A stretch of DNA of 64,000 nucleotides from positions 123,822 to 187,821 of the forward strand of contig NZ_KE557282.1 in the NCBI RefSeq assembly GCF_000442255.1, written 5' to 3'. This DNA is from Salipiger mucosus DSM 16094 (GTDB taxonomy: Bacteria > Pseudomonadota > Alphaproteobacteria > Rhodobacterales > Rhodobacteraceae). The notes below the pieces were generated by a model. The model made no database searches, was not told where the DNA came from, and worked only from the letters and a program-made list of their open reading frames with translations. Within the stretch, counting starts at the first letter, position 1. Each line of letters starts with the position of its first letter. Positions 37,923 through 47,115 of the stretch are shown here, piece after piece. A program made the position numbers and the translations under genes.

Positions 37923-39007
37923 ATGGCCAACGATCCTCTCGTCCGTCTCGACGGCATCACCAAGCGTTTCGGCGACACCGTGGCGCTGGACAACCTCACG
38001 CTCGACATCGCGCAGGGCGAATTCGTCACCTTCCTCGGGCCCTCGGGCTGCGGCAAGTCCACCACGCTGCGCATCCTGGGCGGTTTCGAGCAGCCCAGCG
38101 AAGGGCGCGTCCTGCTTCGCGGCGAAGACGTGACCAGGCGTCCGCCGGAAAAGCGCAACGTGAACATGGTCTTCCAGGACTACGCGCTTTTCCCGCACAT
38201 GACCGTGCGCCAGAACATCGGCTTCGGCCTTGAACTCAAGGGCATGGGCAAGTCCGAGATCCGCGCCCGCCAGGACGAGATCATGGCCTTTCTCGAACTC
38301 GAAGCCTTCGGCGACCGCTACCCGGCGCAGCTTTCGGGCGGTCAGCGGCAGCGCGTCGCGCTGTCGCGGGCGCTGGCGCCGGACCCGGCGCTGCTGCTGC
38401 TCGACGAGCCTCTGGGCGCGCTCGACGCCAAGCTGCGCGCGCAGGTCCAGCAGGAGCTGAAGTCGATCCAGCGGCGCACCAACAAGACCTTCTTCTTCGT
38501 GACCCACGACCAGGAAGAGGCGCTGACCATGTCCGACCGCATCGTCGTGATGAGCAACGGCCGGGTCGAGCAGGACGGCACGCCGGAAGAGCTGTATTTC
38601 CACCCCGCGAGCCGTTTCGTGGCAGAGTTCATCGGCGAGACGAACCTGCTGAACGGCGAGCTGCGCGGGACCGACGGCGATGCCGTGGTGATGGACTGGT
38701 TCGGCCAGACCCTGCGCGGCCACGCGCCGGCCGGCGTGCCGCCCAAGGGCGCGCCGATCACCGCCTCGGTCCGTCTGGAAAAGCTGGACTTCCACAAGGA
38801 GCGCCCGGCGACCGCCAACGCGGTGCAGGGCCGGGTGGTCGGCAAGACCTTCCTCGGCAGCCGCATGGCCGTGGACCTCACGGTCGAGGACGCGCAGGGC
38901 GCGCACCTCAAGGCCTATGTCGATGCCGAAACCGGCCAGTCGGTCGGCGACGCCCCGGTCTGGATCGGCTGGGACGGAAAGACAGCATGGCGGTGCTGCG
39001 CGACTGA
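37923..39007 (+). CDS. ABC transporter ATP-binding protein (PotA-like), probable frameshift at the last codons
   Basis: An ATPase of about 361 residues. Walker A GPSGCGKSTT is at residues 40-49, the signature LSGGQRQRVALSRAL near 138-152, Walker B LLLLDEPLGALD near 157 and the H-loop THDQEEALT after it; a C-terminal TOBE domain follows. In the literal frame the protein runs to 39131, through a strong hairpin and over the convergent gene. A one-base loss near 38977 would instead give the family-like end DSMAVLRD and a stop at 39005-39007, just before the hairpin. I take the latter as the likely true end. Confidence 0.85.
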
Positions 39008-39016
39008 GATCCGTTG

Positions 39017-39044
39017 CCCGGGCCGCCCTTTCGGACGGCCCGGG
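39017..39044. terminator. Hairpin terminator between convergent PotA-like and His-rich genes
   Basis: Arms CCCGGGCCG (39017-39025) and CGGCCCGGG (39036-39044), loop CCCTTTCGGA. It lies 9 bp beyond the corrected ATPase stop and 8 bp before the stop of the minus-strand gene, so it can serve both directions. No T-run is present. Confidence 0.65.
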
Positions 39045-39052
39045 ATCGCCCT

Positions 39053-39511
39053 TCAGCCCTCGATCTCGTGCTTCCGCGCGCGCAGGAAGTCGCGGATGTC
39101 GAGGGCCGATTTTTCATCCATCGAGACATAGACCAGCGACATGTTGGTGCGCTCGCGGACCATCTCGCCGGGGAAGGGCAGGTAGCTCAGCTCCCGCGAC
39201 CCGAAGGACGGCGAGGCGGTGCCCACCTGCCAGTCCGTCGTGAGCTCGACATCCACCAGTTTCAGTGCCGTCGCCCCCGAGGCCGAGGCCCGCTCGAAGG
39301 GCACGCCGGCGAGCTTGAGATAGCTCGTCTTGTCCTTGGCCTGCAGGAAGCCGTCGATGAACTGCGTCGCCAGCACCTGCAGGTCCGCCGCCTCGTCGGC
39401 GTGGTGCATGTGGCTGTGCAGGTGCTCGCCGTCCTGCGGGTGGTTGTGGTCGTGCGGGTGGTGATGGTGATGATGGTGGTGGTGCCCGTGCGGGCCGTGA
39501 TCATGTGGCAT
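39053..39511 (-). CDS. Small His-rich protein of the guanidine operon (candidate nickel-binding accessory)
   Basis: A 152-residue cytoplasmic protein with 20 His in the first 37 residues, including nine in a row, then a folded-looking domain (residues 40-152) with DLQVLATQFIDGFLQAKDK, ELTTDWQVGTASPSFGSRELSYLPFPG and DIRDFLRARKHEIEG. It does not resemble a family I can name. Its start overlaps the 3' end of the guanidine hydrolase-like gene by 11 bp, so the two are co-translated. Ureohydrolases of the GdmH type need nickel; a poly-His protein beside one suggests nickel storage or insertion, which is inference. Confidence 0.75.
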   Translation of the reverse strand: MPHDHGPHGHHHHHHHHHPHDHNHPQDGEHLHSHMHHADEAADLQVLATQFIDGFLQAKDKTSYLKLAGVPFERASASGATALKLVDVELTTDWQVGTASPSFGSRELSYLPFPGEMVRERTNMSLVYVSMDEKSALDIRDFLRARKHEIEG

Positions 39512-40754
39512 TGGACCACCTCTTTCCCTCGAATTCGCCGTGCGGCACCGAGACGGGCTTGTCGATGAACTGCTTGTGCTTGCCCAGCGTGCCGTTCGAG
39601 ACCATGGCCCCGAGCACGTCCACGATGACCCGCGTGCCCATGAGCGCCGTGATGTCTGAGGTGTCGTAGGGCGGCGAGACCTCGACCAGCTCCATCCCGC
39701 AGATGCCCTGTGCCGCCACCTTCGAGGCCAGCGCCAGCGCCTCGCGCGGGAGGAAGCCGCCGGGCTCGGGCCAGCCGGTGCCGGGCACGAACCCGCAGTC
39801 GATGCTGTCGATGTCGAAGGACATGTAGACGATGTCGACACCGTCCCAGGCCATCTCGAGCGCCATCTCGGCGGTCTTGTCGATGCCCATGCGCTCCATG
39901 TCGGACATGGTAATGATGTTGGTCTGCCGCTCGCGCGCGACCTTGACCGCCTCGCGCGGGACCTGCCAGCCGCCGATGCCCACCTGCACGAGGTTCTTGG
40001 CCGGCACGTTGGGCATGTTGGTGGCGTGGAACCACGGCGTCGTGTGCATCCGCTCGTCGAGATCCTTTTCCTGAATGTCGGCGTGGCGGTCGAAGTGCAC
40101 GATCCCGATCTTCTTGCTCGTGCACTCGGCGATGCCGCGCACGCAGGGGAAGCCGATCGAGTGGTCGCCGCCGATCATGATGGGCAGCGAGCCCGACGAG
40201 AAGACGTGGCTTACAGCGCGGCTGATCTGGTCGAAGCTCTTCTCGATGTTGGCAGGGATCGTGAAGACGTCGCCCGCGTCGCACATCGTCATCTGCTCGC
40301 GCAGGTCGACGCCGATCTCGTAGTTGTAGGGCGTGTAGAGCGCGCTGATCTTGCGCACCCCCTGCGGGCCGAAGCGCGTGCCCGGCCGGTAGGTGGTGCC
40401 GCCATCGAAGGGGATGCCCAGCACGGTGGCGTCGTAGTTGGCCACCTCGAGCACGTCCTCGGCGTAGGGCGCCTTGAGGAAGGTGTTGATGCCCGCGTAG
40501 TGCGGCAGCTCGCCCCGGGCGAAGGTCGGGATGGACTTGTCGTCGATGCTCTCGGCGCCGGTCAGGCCCATGCGCAGCGCCCAGCGGCGCTCCTCGTCCC
40601 AGCGGCCCTCGGGCAGCTCGCCCTCCTTCTGCAACGCCTTCCACCCGGCGAGCTTGGTCAGGTCCGGGTGGTGCTGGCGCCGCTCGCGCAGGGCATGGCG
40701 GGCGGCGGCATCGCGCGGATGGTGCGAGGGCCTCTGTCTGAACTCCGAAAACAT
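39501..40754 (-). CDS. gdmH: Guanidine hydrolase-like ureohydrolase (agmatinase family, GdmH type)
   Basis: A 417-residue ureohydrolase. All metal ligands are present: His198 (GGDHS), Asp222, His224 and Asp226 (HFDRHADIQ), Asp314 and Asp316 (SFDIDSID). An N-terminal extension of about 100 residues and the motifs MHTTPWFHATNM and GTGWPEPGG separate it from ordinary agmatinase and resemble cyanobacterial guanidine hydrolase Sll1077, a Ni-dependent enzyme making urea and ammonia. Riboswitch control of the operon supports guanidine as substrate. ATG 40754 follows GGAGACAGGA; ATG 40766 is in frame upstream. Annotation pipelines may call it speB. Confidence 0.82.
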   Translation of the reverse strand: MFSEFRQRPSHHPRDAAARHALRERRQHHPDLTKLAGWKALQKEGELPEGRWDEERRWALRMGLTGAESIDDKSIPTFARGELPHYAGINTFLKAPYAEDVLEVANYDATVLGIPFDGGTTYRPGTRFGPQGVRKISALYTPYNYEIGVDLREQMTMCDAGDVFTIPANIEKSFDQISRAVSHVFSSGSLPIMIGGDHSIGFPCVRGIAECTSKKIGIVHFDRHADIQEKDLDERMHTTPWFHATNMPNVPAKNLVQVGIGGWQVPREAVKVARERQTNIITMSDMERMGIDKTAEMALEMAWDGVDIVYMSFDIDSIDCGFVPGTGWPEPGGFLPREALALASKVAAQGICGMELVEVSPPYDTSDITALMGTRVIVDVLGAMVSNGTLGKHKQFIDKPVSVPHGEFEGKRWSNAT

Positions 40755-40856
40755 TCCTGTCTCCATGTGTCGTGTCCGGCGCACGGCCGGGGCTTCCGGG
40801 CCTTGGTGACGGCCTGCGCGCGGGGCCCGGCGGCGCGCGCGGCGAAGGCGCCGGCC

Positions 40857-41648
40857 TCAGCCCGTGGCGTCGGCCGGCACCGGGGCCGGGCCCAGCGAGG
40901 GCAGCCCGTCGAGGATGTTCTGATACGGGATGCCGCGATCGCGGGCGTCGAAATCGTAGGTGATGGTGGCGCCATAGAGGCCCGGGTCCTGCGGGTCCCA
41001 GCGCGGCTTGTCGAAGACCAGCACGCGGTCGCCCAGCTTGAAGCCCTCCTCGAGGTCGTGGGTGACCATGAAGACGGTCATGCTGGTCTCGGCCCGCAGC
41101 TCGGTGAGGAAGTCGTGCATCGAGAGCCGCGTGCCCGGGTCGAGCGCGCCGAAGGGCTCGTCCAGCAGCAGCACGCGCGGCCGCGCCGTCAGCGCCTGCC
41201 CGATGGCCAGCCGCTGCTGCATCCCCCCCGAGAGCGTCGCGGGGTAGTTGTCGGCGACATGCGACAGCCCGATGCGGGCGAGGGTCGCGTCGGCCTCTTC
41301 CCGCGCCTGCCGCAGCCGCGCGCCGAAGAAACGGCCCAACGGACGCTGGAAGCTCTGCCCGGCGACGATATTGTCGCGCACGCTCATGTGCGGAAAGACC
41401 GAGTAGCGCTGGAAGACGACGCCGCGCTCGATCCCCGGCTCGCGGGCCGGCGCGCCGCCGTCGATGGTGATGCTGCCCCGGGTGGGTTGCTCGTCGGCCA
41501 GCAGGAGCCGCAGGAAGGTGGACTTGCCGCAGCCCGAGGCTCCGACGATCGAGACGAACTCGCCCTCGGCCACGTCGATGTTCACGCGTTCGATGATCGG
41601 GCGGCCGCCGTAGCTCTGCCAGACGTCTCGGACGGATACGAAGCTCAT
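40857..41648 (-). CDS. NitT/TauT-type ABC transporter ATP-binding protein (guanidine operon)
   Basis: A 263-residue ATPase. Walker A GASGCGKST is near residues 38-46, the signature LSGGMQQRLAIGQAL near 138-152, Walker B VLLLDEPFGALD near 156, and the H-loop VTHDLEEG. It powers import by the permease and binding protein encoded upstream. Its ATG overlaps the permease stop by 4 bp. The riboswitch context points to guanidine as cargo. Confidence 0.92.
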   Translation of the reverse strand: MSFVSVRDVWQSYGGRPIIERVNIDVAEGEFVSIVGASGCGKSTFLRLLLADEQPTRGSITIDGGAPAREPGIERGVVFQRYSVFPHMSVRDNIVAGQSFQRPLGRFFGARLRQAREEADATLARIGLSHVADNYPATLSGGMQQRLAIGQALTARPRVLLLDEPFGALDPGTRLSMHDFLTELRAETSMTVFMVTHDLEEGFKLGDRVLVFDKPRWDPQDPGLYGATITYDFDARDRGIPYQNILDGLPSLGPAPVPADATG

Positions 41649-42457
41649 AGTCCCGCCCCCATCCACGGAAAGGCCCGGCGCGACAGCGTCTTGAGGCCCC
41701 AGTCGATCAGGAAGGCGAGCGCGGTGATCCAGATGACGTAGGTCAGGATGATGTCCATCGCGAGATAGCGCCGCACGAGGAAGATGCGGTAGCCCAGCCC
41801 GGTGTCGGCGGCGACCGCCTCGGCGGCGATGAGGAACAGCCAGGCGGCGCCCAGCGAGAGGCGCACGGCGGCGATGAGGCGCGGCAGGATCTGCGGCAGG
41901 ACCACGCGGGTGGCGATGGTCGTGGTCGAGGCGCCCAGCGTCTGCGCCTTGACGATCTCCTCGTGCGGGATGTCGAGCACGCGCTGGCTGAGGTCGCGGA
42001 TCAGGAAGGGCGTGATGCCGATCACGATGAGCACGACCTTCGAGGTCTCGCCCAGGCCGAAGACGATGAAGAGGATCGGCAGCAGCGCCAGCGGCGGCAC
42101 CATCGACAGCACCGCCACGAAGTCCGAGAAGGTGCGCCGCGCGTAGGGCAGCAGGCCGATGAGCAGCCCCGTCACCAGCGAGATCAGCGCTGAGATGCCC
42201 ACGCCAAGGCCCAGCCGCCGCAGGCTGGCGGCGGTGTCGTGCCAGAGCAGGATCGCGCCGGTGCGGCGGTCGCCCTCGGTGAAGAGGCGCAGCGCCGTGT
42301 CGCCGATGGTCGAGGGCGCCGGCAGCAGCTTGTCCTGCGGGTTCGCGCTGAGGCGGATGTCCGAGCCGATGACATAGGCCGCCGCGAACAGCACGAAGGG
42401 CAGCGCTGCGAGGAAGACGGCCATCGGCCGCGAGGGGCGTCGGTTGATGAGGCGCAT
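41645..42457 (-). CDS. NitT/TauT-type ABC transporter permease (guanidine operon)
   Basis: A 270-residue permease with six hydrophobic segments. The EAA loop AQTLGASTTTIATRVVLPQILPR is near residues 165-187 and matches nitrate/sulfonate/taurine-type permeases. It is separated from the binding-protein gene by a 10-bp perfect hairpin and overlaps the ATPase gene by 4 bp. Confidence 0.93.
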   Translation of the reverse strand: MRLINRRPSRPMAVFLAALPFVLFAAAYVIGSDIRLSANPQDKLLPAPSTIGDTALRLFTEGDRRTGAILLWHDTAASLRRLGLGVGISALISLVTGLLIGLLPYARRTFSDFVAVLSMVPPLALLPILFIVFGLGETSKVVLIVIGITPFLIRDLSQRVLDIPHEEIVKAQTLGASTTTIATRVVLPQILPRLIAAVRLSLGAAWLFLIAAEAVAADTGLGYRIFLVRRYLAMDIILTYVIWITALAFLIDWGLKTLSRRAFPWMGAGL

Positions 42458-42485
42458 CGTCGGGCCTTTCGCGGAAAGGGGCGCG

Positions 42486-42511
42486 GCGGCCCCGGGCCAT
42501 GCCGGGGCCGC
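42486..42511 (-). terminator. Perfect hairpin between binding-protein and permease genes
   Basis: Arms GCGGCCCCGG (42486-42495) and CCGGGGCCGC (42502-42511) around GCCATG, 14 bp after the binding-protein stop. No T-run. It has the same position as the hairpins after tctC and the PotD-like gene. Confidence 0.6.
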
Positions 42512-42525
42512 GCGGGTCTCCGGTC

Positions 42526-43590
42526 TCAGAGGCTGCCGTCGGCGGCCATCTGCATGTAGGTCGTGTCGAAGCGGAACATCACGTTGTCGGTGTTGCCCGT
42601 GGTCGACCCGTCCGGGTAGGCGATGCCCACGAAGTCGGGCGAGGGTGCGTTGACGCCGAGGATGCCCTTGTCGAACAGGAAGTTCGCGACGTTGGTCATG
42701 GTCTCGGGCAGGTCCCCGGAGGCGGCCTGTGCCACGGCATCGGCCGGGTCGAAGAACATTTCCGTCGCCGCGAGCTGCGCCTTGTAGCCTTCGAGGTCGG
42801 TGCCCGAGGCCTCGGCCATGGCGGTCAGCGCCTCCTCGTCGCCCTCGGCCATGAGCGACATGACCTCGTACCAGGCGCCCGCGACGGCCCTGCCGAAGTC
42901 GGGGTTCGCCTCGAGCGTCTCGGTGTTCACCACCATGAGGTCGAGGATCTCGCCCGGGATCTGAGAGCTGTCGAAGATGTTGGTCGCATCCGGGTTCGAG
43001 GACAGGATTTCCGAGACGAGCGGGTTCCAGGTCACCACGGCCTCGACCTCGGGCGCGGCATAGGCGGCGATCATGTCGGCGTCCGAGGTGTTGACCACGC
43101 CGTCGAGGTCGGCCTCGGACAGGCCCACGCTGTCCAGCCCGCGCGCGAGCAGGTAGTGCGAGACCGAGAGCTCCACGAGGTTCACCGGCTTGCCGGCGAG
43201 ATCCTCGAGCGATCCCTCGCCCTTCAGGATGACCGCGTCGTTTCCGTCTGAATAGTCGCCGATGATCAGCGCGGTGGTGTCGACGCCGCCGCCCGCAGGG
43301 ATCGAGAGCGTGTCCATGTTGGTGGCAGAGACACCGTCGAATTCGCCCGCGGTATACTGGTTGATGGATTCGACGTAGTCGTTGATCTGCACGATATCGA
43401 CGGTGATGCCGTACTTCTCGGCCCACTTGTCCATGATGCCGCTGTCGTCGAGATAGCCCCAGGGCATCCAGCCCACGTAGATCGACCAGGCGAGGCGGAA
43501 GTCGGTCTTTTCTTGCGCCATCGCCGGGCCGGTGGCTGCGAGAACGCCCAGAGAGAGCGCCGTGGCTGTCAGGAGGGTCTGTCTGGTCAT
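42526..43590 (-). CDS. NitT/TauT-type ABC transporter substrate-binding protein (guanidine operon)
   Basis: A 354-residue periplasmic binding protein. Residues 1-24 are a Sec signal (LLTATALSLGVLAATGPAMA, then QEKTDF). The mature protein has the FRLAWSIYVGWMPWGYLDDSGIMDKW start and the VEAVVTWNPLVSEI segment of nitrate/taurine-type binding proteins. ATG 43590 follows a GGGGAAG ribosome site. It is the first gene after the guanidine-I riboswitch, consistent with riboswitch-associated transporters of this type known in other bacteria. Confidence 0.92.
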   Translation of the reverse strand: MTRQTLLTATALSLGVLAATGPAMAQEKTDFRLAWSIYVGWMPWGYLDDSGIMDKWAEKYGITVDIVQINDYVESINQYTAGEFDGVSATNMDTLSIPAGGGVDTTALIIGDYSDGNDAVILKGEGSLEDLAGKPVNLVELSVSHYLLARGLDSVGLSEADLDGVVNTSDADMIAAYAAPEVEAVVTWNPLVSEILSSNPDATNIFDSSQIPGEILDLMVVNTETLEANPDFGRAVAGAWYEVMSLMAEGDEEALTAMAEASGTDLEGYKAQLAATEMFFDPADAVAQAASGDLPETMTNVANFLFDKGILGVNAPSPDFVGIAYPDGSTTGNTDNVMFRFDTTYMQMAADGSL

Positions 43591-43679
43591 GGTCTTCCCC
43601 GTTGGCAAGCGTCCCGCCGATATTGGTTTTCGGTCAGCCCGCTGGCGGAACAAGGAGACAAGGGCGCGGACGAGACCTG

Positions 43680-43794
43680 CGCAGTGTATCTCCCGGGATT
43701 TTGGCCCGCCGTGTGCCCGCCCGGAATTTGCCGGGCAGGTTGTGCTTCTCGGACCAGGCTTCGCCGTGGCGAACGGAACCCTAAGCACGCTGCC
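43680..43794 (-). promoter_or_regulatory. Guanidine-I (ykkC) riboswitch
   Basis: Read on the minus strand, the conserved elements occur in the right order: AGGGTTCCG (43782-43774), CTGGTCCGAGA (43757-43747), ACGG (43712-43709) and CCCGGGAGA (43697-43689). Flanking GCAGCGTG and CACTGC can close the P1 stem. This element binds guanidinium and turns on downstream genes. It lies about 90 bp before the start of the ABC binding-protein gene. I could not decide whether control is by termination or by ribosome access; a leader segment with CCGCC...GGCGG follows. Confidence 0.9.
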
Positions 43795-43947
43795 CCTTCA
43801 GTCAGCCCCGGCGGCGGCGATCATGGCAAAGAAAAATGTGAGCCTGCTCGGGATGCCCGCCGGGAATGCACTCGAATTGTGCAGCCAGGGCGGGCGCGGA
43901 CCCCCGAATTCATGCTCCCGCAGTCGCCTCGAGCGCGCAGTGGAGGC

Positions 43948-44880
43948 TCAACCCGCCTGCCGACGGAATCGCGAGGGGCTGTCGCCGGTGGCCTGCCGAA
44001 AGGCGGTCGCGAAGGCGGTGGGGGTCTCGTATCCCGCCAGCCGCGCCGCCTCGGAGACCGTGGCACCGCGCCGCAGAGCCGCCGCCGCCTGTTCCATCCG
44101 CCGCCGTCGCAGGCAGGTCATGACCGGCTCGCCATAGGCCCGGCGGAAGAGTCGCCGCATGGTCGAGACGCTCGTGCCCCCGGCGGCGGCGATCCGCTCC
44201 AAGGCGGGGATGGGCCCGGGCCGGTCCGCGAGGGCCTCCATCCGGGCCAGCCGGTCGCGTTCGTCCGGCCTCAGGCCATTGCCGTGCGGCACGAGCCTCT
44301 CGATCGCATCCCGCAGCAGCGCCAATGCGAGGGCCTCCTTGGCGAAGGTGCCCGACGGCCCCGGGTCCGGGGTATCGAGCAACGCGCGGACCTGCGCGAT
44401 GACGCCGGGCGGAGCCACCCAGCTTTCCAGCCGGTGGGTGCGGCCCGCCAGGATGTCCTCTCGCGTGACGGCGCGCGCCGCGAGCCAGTCCCAGGACAGC
44501 CCCACCGTGAGCTTGCGCAGGCGTTCGCCCCGGCTCGCGCTGCGGCGGAAGGGCAGCGGGCTGGAGAGCGCGCTGAAGACGATCCGCACGGGCGCGCCGG
44601 GCCGGCGTCCGATCTCCAGCGCCTCGTCGCCGAGCCGGGCGCTGACCCGGCCCTCGAGCACGACGTGCAGCAGTACGTTTGCGGGCCGCGTCATGTACGT
44701 TTCGAAATCCGCCGCGGCGCGCGTGTCCTGCAGGTTGACCGTCAGGCCCGAGGGCAGCGTGGCCGTGGCGCGACCGCCGTGCAGGACGATGCGGTCCGGC
44801 GGCAGCGTGGCGCCGTGATCCCGGATTCCCGTGCGCAGCGAACGCGTGATGTCTTGAAGGCTGATTCCGGCCGGCGCCAT
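43948..44880 (-). CDS. AraC family transcriptional regulator (siderophore locus)
   Basis: A 310-residue regulator. The C-terminal AraC DNA-binding domain (residues about 210-310) has two helix-turn-helix motifs, including IAAAGGTSVSTMRRLFRRAYG and ATVSEAARLAGYETPTAFATAFRQATGDSPSRFR. The N-terminal domain resembles regulators of siderophore uptake such as PchR/YbtA. Start 44880 has GGAGAGAGG upstream. It is divergent from the TonB receptor gene, so it most likely activates that gene rather than the guanidine operon. Confidence 0.9.
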   Translation of the reverse strand: MAPAGISLQDITRSLRTGIRDHGATLPPDRIVLHGGRATATLPSGLTVNLQDTRAAADFETYMTRPANVLLHVVLEGRVSARLGDEALEIGRRPGAPVRIVFSALSSPLPFRRSASRGERLRKLTVGLSWDWLAARAVTREDILAGRTHRLESWVAPPGVIAQVRALLDTPDPGPSGTFAKEALALALLRDAIERLVPHGNGLRPDERDRLARMEALADRPGPIPALERIAAAGGTSVSTMRRLFRRAYGEPVMTCLRRRRMEQAAAALRRGATVSEAARLAGYETPTAFATAFRQATGDSPSRFRRQAG

Positions 44881-44969
44881 GGCCTCTCTCCGCATTTTGG
44901 CGTTTTCGAAAAGCTTTCCGAACGGCGTGCGAAGGTCGCTGGCTGGTTCGGCCCCTCTCTACCCGATAA

Positions 44970-45009: not shown

Positions 45010-47115
45010 ATGACGCCCTCCGTGCCCCGCCCGACACGCCTGGCCCTTCTGGTCACCACCGCGCTCACCGGCCCCGCGCTGGCGCAGGACGAGCCCGTCT
45101 ACCTTGGCGAGATCACCATCGACGGCGCCAGCTACGAGACCGAGGACAGCGACAGCTACTCGACCGACCTGGTCTCGGTCGGGGAAAAGGCCACGATGAG
45201 CCCGCGCGAGGTGCCGCAGTCCACCTCGGTGGTGACGCGCAAGCAGATCGACGACGGCGGCTACACCGCGCTGGAAGAGGCGCTGGCCGATACCCCGGGG
45301 ATCATGATCCTCAACAACGACACCGGCCGGTCGTCGATCTTCTCGCGCGGCTACGAGTTCGACTACCTCTACTTCGACGGCCTGCCGGCGCCGGTGAGTT
45401 CGATCTACGGCACGCAGCCCGATCTCTCGATCGTGGACCACATCGAGGTGCTCAAGGGCCCCGCTGGCCTCTTCATCGGCACGGGCGAGCCTGCGGGGTC
45501 GATCAACATGCGTCTGAAGCAGGCGACGGCGACCGAGCCCAAGGGTTACGCGACCCTGTCGGGCGACTCCAACGGGCAGGCACGGGCCGAGGTCGACGTC
45601 TCGGGCGCGCTGAACGAGGAGGGCACGCTGCGCGGCCGCGTGGTGGGGGCCTATGGCGATGGCGGTGATTTCGTCGACGGCGTGGAGAACGGCGTGCGCT
45701 CGCTCTACGGCACGCTGGCCTGGGACGTGACGCCGGACACCGAGCTGACCTTTTCGCTCAGCCACATGCAGCGCGACATCGCGCCTTTCAACGGACTGCC
45801 GACCGATGACGACGGCGACCTGATCTGGACCGATGTCTCTGCCACCACGGGGCCCGACTGGAACGATTTCGAGAACGCCACGACCGACGCCGTGCTGGCG
45901 GCCGAGCATTTCCTCGCCAACGGCGCGCGGGTGAAGTTCTCGATGCGCAAGTCGCGGCAGGAAGCGGATTTCCTCTACGGCTATTCCGGGTCCACCGCCG
46001 ACGAGAACAACATGATCTCGCGGCTGTCCTGGCTGGCGCAGGACTTCGAACAGGACAGCCTTGCCTTCGACGTGCACGCCGAGATGCCTTTCGCGCTGGC
46101 CGGCTGGACCGGCACCGCGATCCTCGGCGCCGACTGGCAGAAGGTCGACAGCACCCGGCACCAGGCGCGCGGGGCGATCTCGGGCAGCTGGGATCTGGAC
46201 GACTGGGACGGCGGCGTTGCCCGGCCGGATGCAAGCTACACCAGCCGCACCGACACCGAGACGACCTCGACCGGGCTCTACTCGCAGGTGCGCCTGTCGC
46301 CGGTGGATGCGCTGACGCTCATCGGGGGCGCGCGGCTGAGCTGGTATGACGGCACCGTCGACTCCAGGACGCTGGCCACCGGCGAGGTCTCGACCGCGCG
46401 TTACGATGTCGAGGCGAAGGTGACGCCCTTTGCCGGCCTGACCTATGACATCACCGACAACGCGACGCTCTACGCCAGCTATTCCGAAATCTTCATCCCG
46501 CAGTCCGAACTGGACGACGACGGCGACCTGCTGGAACCTGTCGAGGGGCGCCAGGTCGAGATCGGGGCCAAGGCCCGGCTGGGCTACGGGCTGGATGTCT
46601 CGGCCGCGCTCTTCGACCTGCGCGAGGTTAACCGGCCCGTCTCCGTCGTGGGCGAGGACTACTACGTCGCCGAGGAGGAGGTCGTCTCGCGCGGGTTCGA
46701 GCTGGAGGTCGCGGGCGAGGTGGCGCCGGATGTCCACCTGGCGGCGGGCTACACCTACACCGATACCGAGTATCTCAACGGCGACAACGAGGGCGATGCC
46801 TTCTCGACCTACACGCCCGAGCACATGTTCAAGCTCACCGGCGCCTACGACGTGACCTCCGGCGCGCTCGAAGGCTGGAGCCTTGGCGGCCGGCTGACCT
46901 GGATGTCGGAGTTCTCCTCGCGCGGGATCGAGGCGCCGGGCTATGGCGTCGTCGACCTGACGGCTTCGCGGACCTTCGCCAACGACCTCGAACTGCGGGT
47001 CGGCATCGATAACGCCTTCGACCGCGACTACTACAGCCGCGTCGGCGGCACGACGGTGTTCAACTTCCGGGGCGAGCCGCGCACCTTCAACGTGTCGCTG
47101 ACCCGCTCGTTCTGA
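45010..47115 (+). CDS. TonB-dependent siderophore receptor
   Basis: A 701-residue outer-membrane receptor. Signal peptide residues 1-25 (LALLVTTALTGPALA), a plug domain (REVPQSTSVVTRKQIDDGGYTALEEALADTPGI, VLKGPAGLFIGTGEPAGSINM) and a beta-barrel ending in Phe (FNVSLTRSF). A TonB box-like region follows the signal. It imports ferric siderophore with TonB energy. The stop overlaps the ATG of the esterase gene, and an AraC gene is divergent. Confidence 0.95.
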   Translation: MTPSVPRPTRLALLVTTALTGPALAQDEPVYLGEITIDGASYETEDSDSYSTDLVSVGEKATMSPREVPQSTSVVTRKQIDDGGYTALEEALADTPGIMILNNDTGRSSIFSRGYEFDYLYFDGLPAPVSSIYGTQPDLSIVDHIEVLKGPAGLFIGTGEPAGSINMRLKQATATEPKGYATLSGDSNGQARAEVDVSGALNEEGTLRGRVVGAYGDGGDFVDGVENGVRSLYGTLAWDVTPDTELTFSLSHMQRDIAPFNGLPTDDDGDLIWTDVSATTGPDWNDFENATTDAVLAAEHFLANGARVKFSMRKSRQEADFLYGYSGSTADENNMISRLSWLAQDFEQDSLAFDVHAEMPFALAGWTGTAILGADWQKVDSTRHQARGAISGSWDLDDWDGGVARPDASYTSRTDTETTSTGLYSQVRLSPVDALTLIGGARLSWYDGTVDSRTLATGEVSTARYDVEAKVTPFAGLTYDITDNATLYASYSEIFIPQSELDDDGDLLEPVEGRQVEIGAKARLGYGLDVSAALFDLREVNRPVSVVGEDYYVAEEEVVSRGFELEVAGEVAPDVHLAAGYTYTDTEYLNGDNEGDAFSTYTPEHMFKLTGAYDVTSGALEGWSLGGRLTWMSEFSSRGIEAPGYGVVDLTASRTFANDLELRVGIDNAFDRDYYSRVGGTTVFNFRGEPRTFNVSLTRSF

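Follow-up and report, generated by a model that had tools for sequence, protein, structure and literature searches.

A Guanidine-I riboswitch operon of Salipiger mucosus ending in a gdmH-linked, His-tailed protein, a candidate nickel-delivery factor for guanidinase

We analyzed a 64,000 nt stretch of DNA from Salipiger mucosus DSM 16094 (contig NZ_KE557282.1), called the window below, whose numbering is used for all positions that carry no genome or locus label. It holds a minus-strand operon that opens with a Guanidine-I (ykkC) riboswitch and closes with a gene for a His-rich protein, which overlaps gdmH, the gene for a probable guanidine hydrolase (guanidinase). In order, the operon comprises the riboswitch aptamer (43688..43795), a candidate expression platform made of two stems (43611..43671), the three genes of an ATP-binding cassette (ABC) transporter, namely a substrate-binding protein presumed to take guanidine (42526..43590), a permease (41645..42457; PF00528, 68 bits), and an ATPase of the NitT/TauT type (40857..41648; PF00005, 114 bits), then gdmH (39501..40754; PF00491, 260 bits), and the His-rich gene (39053-39511), all on the minus strand. 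A first-pass annotation of the same DNA had proposed this order from riboswitch to His protein, and the Rfam, Pfam, and NCBIfam matches bear it out; the riboswitch that it had placed at the head of the operon is recovered by a covariance model, with an end within one base of its coordinate. Its term "poly-His protein" for the last product fits insofar as the protein is His-rich, but the label is too small, as the greater part of the product is a conserved domain; the annotation had assigned no role to this protein. Up to the enzyme, the operon is a further example of the known cyanobacterial sll1077-1082 type. The novelty of the locus appears to rest in the last gene, which is predicted to encode a guanidinase-linked two-part protein that is apparently unnamed.

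The product of the last gene has 152 residues. Its translation begins with a 38-residue tail that contains 20 His (residues 1-38, 39398..39511, minus), followed by a 114-residue core (residues 39-152 plus the stop, 39053..39397, minus) that holds a conserved domain of about 105 residues. The full-length protein has no Pfam match at E ≤ 1 and no NCBIfam match at E ≤ 0.01; 18 diverse cores have no Pfam match at E ≤ 0.1, 52 cores have no NCBIfam match at E ≤ 0.1, the core profile finds nothing below E 1 among PDB sequences, and PHROGs gives no match to the protein. Several familiar identities were considered and rejected: HypA, because neither the protein (E ≤ 1) nor the 18 cores (E ≤ 0.1) match PF01155 or any other Pfam model and because 49 cores together contain 6 Cys, next to 37 His; a HypB/UreG-type GTPase and UreE, because neither a GTPase domain nor a UreE domain is matched in Pfam or NCBIfam; and a chance His repeat, because the tail is attached to a conserved partner domain. 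We found no earlier description of a protein with this core domain in the literature searched, and "undescribed" is used here provisionally.

AlphaFold models the core as two helices, strands, and a C-terminal helix, with a mean predicted local distance difference test score (pLDDT) of 87.1 and a predicted template modeling score (pTM) of 0.73; the mean pLDDT of the full-length model is 75.4. The model is least certain around residues 97-117 of the protein, although this stretch ranks with the best conserved across the family; the combination hints at a loop that binds a partner. Foldseek searches of the PDB with both models returned no match at E ≤ 0.001, an absence that does not show the fold to be new, and the best VIA Z values of the two models are 3.5 and 3.0. 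Chains of COMMD/CCC/Commander proteins recur as weak Foldseek matches (E of at least 0.10 with one model and at least 0.43 with the other), and the alignments to COMM-domain chains are weak as well, with Z at most 2.6 over 46-60 residues.

The pairing of gdmH with the core gene was followed through three genome draws, with GdmH cut-offs of 1e-100 for the family and class draws and 1e-80 for the phylum draw. Among 295 genomes of the family draw, GdmH is present in 44 and a match to the His-rich protein in 46, including all 44. The two extra matches are two short pieces in a fragmentary genome (G159), set aside as not real, and a match at E 9e-4 with 38% identity over 60 residues (G057), judged to be chance. 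In 43 of the 44 genomes, the two genes share a contig and are no more than 0.6 kb apart; in the remaining one (G098) they are at two contig ends. The class draw (337 genomes) gave GdmH in 11 and the core profile in 12, these being the same 11 and G418, whose core gene is a truncated relic with a stop (L129 7103-7360); the 14 kb read there contain no gdmH. In the phylum draw (349 genomes), GdmH occurs in 6, all Alphaproteobacteria, and in none outside that class at E ≤ 1e-80; 2 of the 6 had not come up in the other draws, and in each of these gdmH has the core as its neighbor. The pairing is thus strict in the sampled genomes, with the core domain present in 56/56 alphaproteobacterial genomes in which guanidinase was found. 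In the 42 loci read with their flanks, the core gene is always downstream of gdmH, at most 0.4 kb away in 41 and 0.6 kb away in L109. Of 36 loci (a 37th row was left out because its start had been wrongly chosen), 34 have the start of the last gene no more than 30 nt from the gdmH stop, 19 of them with an 11-nt overlap. Conservation reaches Sinorhizobium fredii NGR234 (Hyphomicrobiales), which has the riboswitch, the transporter, gdmH, and a His-rich relative whose core is 28-36% identical. Because gdmH is patchy in the family (44/295) and this single adjacency outlasts rearrangement, the genomic pattern argues for a functional pair, with shared descent explaining part of it.

The two parts of the protein vary very differently. 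Across 49 proteins, including that of the window, the tail contains 1-28 His with a median of 16, and at least 6 in 45/49. Locus L090 lacks the tail and in L086 and L087 it has shrunk to a few His, and in all three the core still stands beside gdmH; it is therefore the core that stays constant, with the tail being adjustable. Such a variable tail on a constant domain is also known from other nickel accessory proteins. The variability of the tail, together with a relative that bears a second, C-terminal His-rich extension of 13 His (L048 1026-1508, minus), would also suit passive storage of nickel or buffering of metal by a protein that is merely coregulated with GdmH and whose core only folds or oligomerizes it. 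We consider this improbable, given that the core is constant and stays beside gdmH in the near-tailless relatives and that, away from gdmH, draws of 295, 337, and 185 genomes gave only fragments and weak core matches (G647 in the 185-genome draw, E 0.03 over 21 positions, was set aside). Somewhat less unlikely, in our estimation, is that the core serves GdmH as a subunit, assembly factor, or regulator, comparable to the second subunit of metformin hydrolase, with the His tail as a secondary aid: the one-to-one pairing, the overlapping genes, the conserved loop of low model confidence, and the tail-poor relatives would all fit. Such a role agrees less well with the retention of at least 6 tail His in 45 of the 49 proteins, and with the two operons, those of S. 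fredii NGR234 and G775, in which a gene for a HupE/UreJ nickel permease (PF04955, 153 and 169 bits) directly follows the core gene. Nor do the portions of the published accounts at hand report such a partner for Sll1077 or the Nitrospira inopinata enzyme (PMC12186494, PMC11410670).

The gdmH product is placed among guanidinases by two independent lines of comparison. Its best relatives of known structure in the PDB are Sll1077 (7esr/7oi1, 554.6 bits) and the N. inopinata guanidinase (9fek, 537.5 bits); proclavaminate amidino hydrolase follows at 175 bits, and the first named agmatinase scores 129.6 bits. A 25-row maximum-likelihood tree gathers the 20 guanidinase-like rows into a single clade (support 100/100), within which the 14 alphaproteobacterial enzymes make up one subclade (100/99). 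Proclavaminate amidino hydrolase, guanidinobutyrase, guanidinopropionase, and two ureohydrolase paralogs from the S. mucosus genome fall outside; long branches meet at the outgroup, and the score gap in the PDB comparison backs the grouping independently of the tree. Agmatinases of known structure were compared by score (129.6 bits and less) in place of tree rows, and the enzyme stays below the cut-off of the agmatinase model TIGR01230 (170.4 against 174.3 bits), so that an agmatinase identity was rejected on the low scores and the tree placement. The motifs GGDHS, HxDRHxD, and SFDxDSxD, which we take to be the binuclear metal-ligand motifs, occur in 38, 38, and 37 of 38 sequences, including the window enzyme, which has all three. 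The GdmH-type motifs and full set of metal ligands claimed by the first-pass annotation were thus found in the ureohydrolase (GGDHS, HFDRHAD, SFDIDSID), and in the phylogeny that it had proposed as a check the enzyme falls with Sll1077 and the N. inopinata guanidinase, away from the other ureohydrolases; neither this check nor the covariance search refuted its proposal. The start codon of gdmH is our choice, an in-frame GTG being present further upstream. Manganese is the commoner ureohydrolase metal and nickel that of guanidinase, as described in the available text of PMC11399263, and the product is probably a Ni-dependent guanidine hydrolase.

The transporter is presumed to import guanidine. 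With 508.9 bits, the binding protein exceeds the curated TIGR03427 cut-off of 333.9, and the ATPase has TIGR01184 as its best NCBIfam model, under the cut-off. The order of binding protein, permease, and ATPase is retained in 41/42 loci. NCBIfam titles TIGR03427 "putative urea ABC transporter substrate-binding protein", and guanidinase activity is here predicted from sequence; one could thus imagine a transporter for urea, or an enzyme acting on another guanidino compound, with guanidine as the inducer only. This we regard as very improbable: the two proven guanidinases are closest to the enzyme by a wide margin, the guanidine riboswitch is described as highly specific in the part of PMC11410670 at hand, and a transporter of similar type goes with the cyanobacterial guanidinase in the excerpts of PMC8390497 and PMC10119275. 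Several variants of the layout were seen. In three of the 41 loci, 2-3 kb are inserted ahead of gdmH, between it and the ATPase gene (L005 4580-6741, L110 2368-5492, L112 2881-6091); L110 and L112 also have a less closely related transporter (44-60% identity) and showed no riboswitch. A minimal two-gene version occurs in G703 (L127, 5796-7855, minus), where the riboswitch directly precedes gdmH and the core gene and no matching ABC transporter was found alongside. On a plasmid of Rubrobacter indicoceani (L068 7804-14723), a Guanidine-I riboswitch and a guanidinase-like gene are followed by genes for a sodium:solute symporter, which is a different importer candidate, formamidase, and urease, and there is no core-domain protein.

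The riboswitch match to RF00442 (43795-43688, minus) scores 81.7 bits against a gathering threshold of 63, with E 5.3e-13, and covers the model over its full length (1-107). It is the sole Rfam match at gathering level in the window, and no second RF00442 was found in the genome. An upstream match at gathering level is present in 36/42 loci. L089 has a subthreshold match where one is expected (41.1 bits, E 5e-4); L088, L091, G194 (L110, L130), and G008 (L112, L131) have none upstream even at E ≤ 1, and none was seen in L087, where the contig ends. Between the aptamer and the start codon, an alignment of 19 of the 27 available Rhodobacteraceae leaders, picked partly by eye after many had been inspected, outlines two stems. 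In stem A, 43671-43666 pairs with 43642-43637, with a covariation of 0.316 against 0.160 in shuffled alignments (0/500) and 11 cells changed on both sides. Stem B pairs 43651-43644 with 43618-43611, and a GGGGA sequence resembling a ribosome-binding site comes shortly after it; the stem is conserved in the 19 leaders and barely varies. Because the 5' arm of stem B lies inside the loop of stem A, the two would form a pseudoknot or be mutually exclusive, and they are a candidate translational expression platform in part of the family. The platform is not family-wide, since only one of the eight omitted leaders (L108) has the stem B arms, altered with matching changes in both, and the other seven lack them. 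Folded as a single sequence, the leader is no better than its shuffles (z 0.20), and neither of the two terminator-like sites in 38600-44200 is in the leader.

On the side of the riboswitch, an AraC-type regulator gene (43948-44895, minus) is just upstream of it on the same strand, and the opposite strand bears a receptor-like frame (45010-47115). At the other end, the ATPase gene of a polyamine-type transporter (37923-39131, plus) runs toward the operon; it seems to end out of frame, so that the open frame overlaps the His-rich gene at its 3' end.

The search for nickel-related genes covered the operon, the genomes, and the flanking regions. There is no HypA or HypB gene within the operon. 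Across the guanidinase genomes, HypA mostly stays below its cut-off: it is above it in 17/56 genomes, a count in which the match in G052 (E 5e-4, below cut-off) is scored as absent, and 16 of 51 good-quality genomes match at E ≤ 0.001. HypA is therefore not a general loader for these enzymes. In S. mucosus, the HypA gene is on contig 12 (L001 1501-2684), away from the operon; the frame after it, which we tentatively read as HypB-like, has a His-rich stretch too. A urease alpha match is present in 56/56 guanidinase genomes and in 64/80 GdmH-negative genomes of the family (Fisher p 1.8e-4, uncorrected for kinship). The match in S. mucosus is partial (G000:C14:70620-70970, an open frame of 149 residues), possibly because the contig ends there or the copy is broken. 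With a urease alpha match in the genome, partial though it is here, it is plausible that guanidine is taken via urea to ammonia. In G389 (contig 17; L088 922-1419, plus), a His-tailed frame that we read as a putative UreE and a urease alpha gene are close upstream of the guanidine operon.

Taken together, these features suggested to us that the operon is a guanidine-inducible nitrogen-acquisition unit. Guanidine would bind the Guanidine-I riboswitch and allow the operon to be expressed, the ABC transporter would import guanidine, GdmH as a nickel ureohydrolase would split it into urea and ammonia, and a urease encoded elsewhere would complete the breakdown. For the last protein, we lean toward a dedicated role in delivering nickel to GdmH or in its maturation. 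The core domain would dock on apo-GdmH, probably via loop 97-117, the His tail would gather nickel and so raise its local concentration, and metal transfer to the enzyme would follow; the protein may thus do for the alphaproteobacterial GdmH what HypA/HypB do in cyanobacteria. The Synechocystis guanidinase is nickel-dependent and encoded with nickel-delivery proteins that its activity requires, according to the passages of PMC12186494 at hand, and the metformin hydrolase, a relative of GdmH, stands beside hypA, hypB, and hupE and depends on HypA/HypB in those of PMC11399263.

A number of observations weigh against a dedicated nickel factor. The core has no invariant or near-invariant His or Cys. 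Four of 49 proteins have at most five tail His, one of them a single His, so the tail is not essential everywhere. The 17 genomes with HypA, that of S. mucosus among them, do have a second candidate, the nickel permease gene was found in only 2 of 45 regions searched, and the nickel proteins of urease could also serve GdmH. Part of the co-occurrence is shared descent, because the alphaproteobacterial enzymes form one clade. None of four actinobacterial plasmid guanidinases has the core domain in the 15.7-17 kb read; these four are the guanidinases tested outside Alphaproteobacteria, the cyanobacterial and Nitrospira loci being known from papers. Comammox guanidinase genomes are without an obvious dedicated nickel loader, as far as the available text of PMC11410670 goes, and, with the actinobacterial loci, this means that GdmH is not universally in need of such a factor.

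A more specific proposal, to which we give even chances, is that the last gene represents an undescribed family of GTPase-independent, enzyme-specific nickel chaperones, in which a His-tail collector is joined to a docking domain of unrecognized fold, and that this family replaced HypA/HypB nonhomologously in guanidinase maturation in Alphaproteobacteria and has been inherited with gdmH since. How the correct metal enters guanidinase is answered only for enzymes assisted by HypA/HypB; for the comammox enzyme, PMC11410670 left the question open. A constant partner gene in Alphaproteobacteria, from marine Rhodobacteraceae to Sinorhizobium fredii, makes the metal-loading question testable with two genes. 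It also indicates guanidine as a nitrogen source in these groups.

Known systems share parts of this arrangement. HypB and UreE likewise carry a variable His-rich extension on a conserved domain and are linked to a nickel enzyme; unlike theirs, the core described here lacks conserved His and Cys and, by Pfam and NCBIfam, matches neither a GTPase nor UreE nor HypA. The Synechocystis sll1077-1082 operon has GdmH, hypA/hypB-type genes, and an SsuA/NrtD-type transporter, and, in the portions of PMC12186494, PMC8390497, and PMC10119275 at hand, it shares with the S. mucosus operon the control by a Guanidine-I riboswitch, the enzyme family, and the type of ABC transporter. In S. mucosus, however, hypA and hypB are absent from the operon, and a protein without sequence match to either holds the accessory place directly after gdmH. 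The comammox N. inopinata locus resembles ours in its riboswitch and in an enzyme of the same clade; it differs in having an APC permease in place of the ABC transporter and, within the available text of PMC11410670, in that no dedicated nickel-loading protein was found there. The operons for metformin/dimethylguanidine hydrolase, as described in the parts of PMC11399263 at hand, differ in their two-subunit enzyme, HypA/HypB chaperones, and substrate, but there too hupE and accessory nickel genes accompany a nickel ureohydrolase, and a hupE-type gene follows the core gene in two of our loci.

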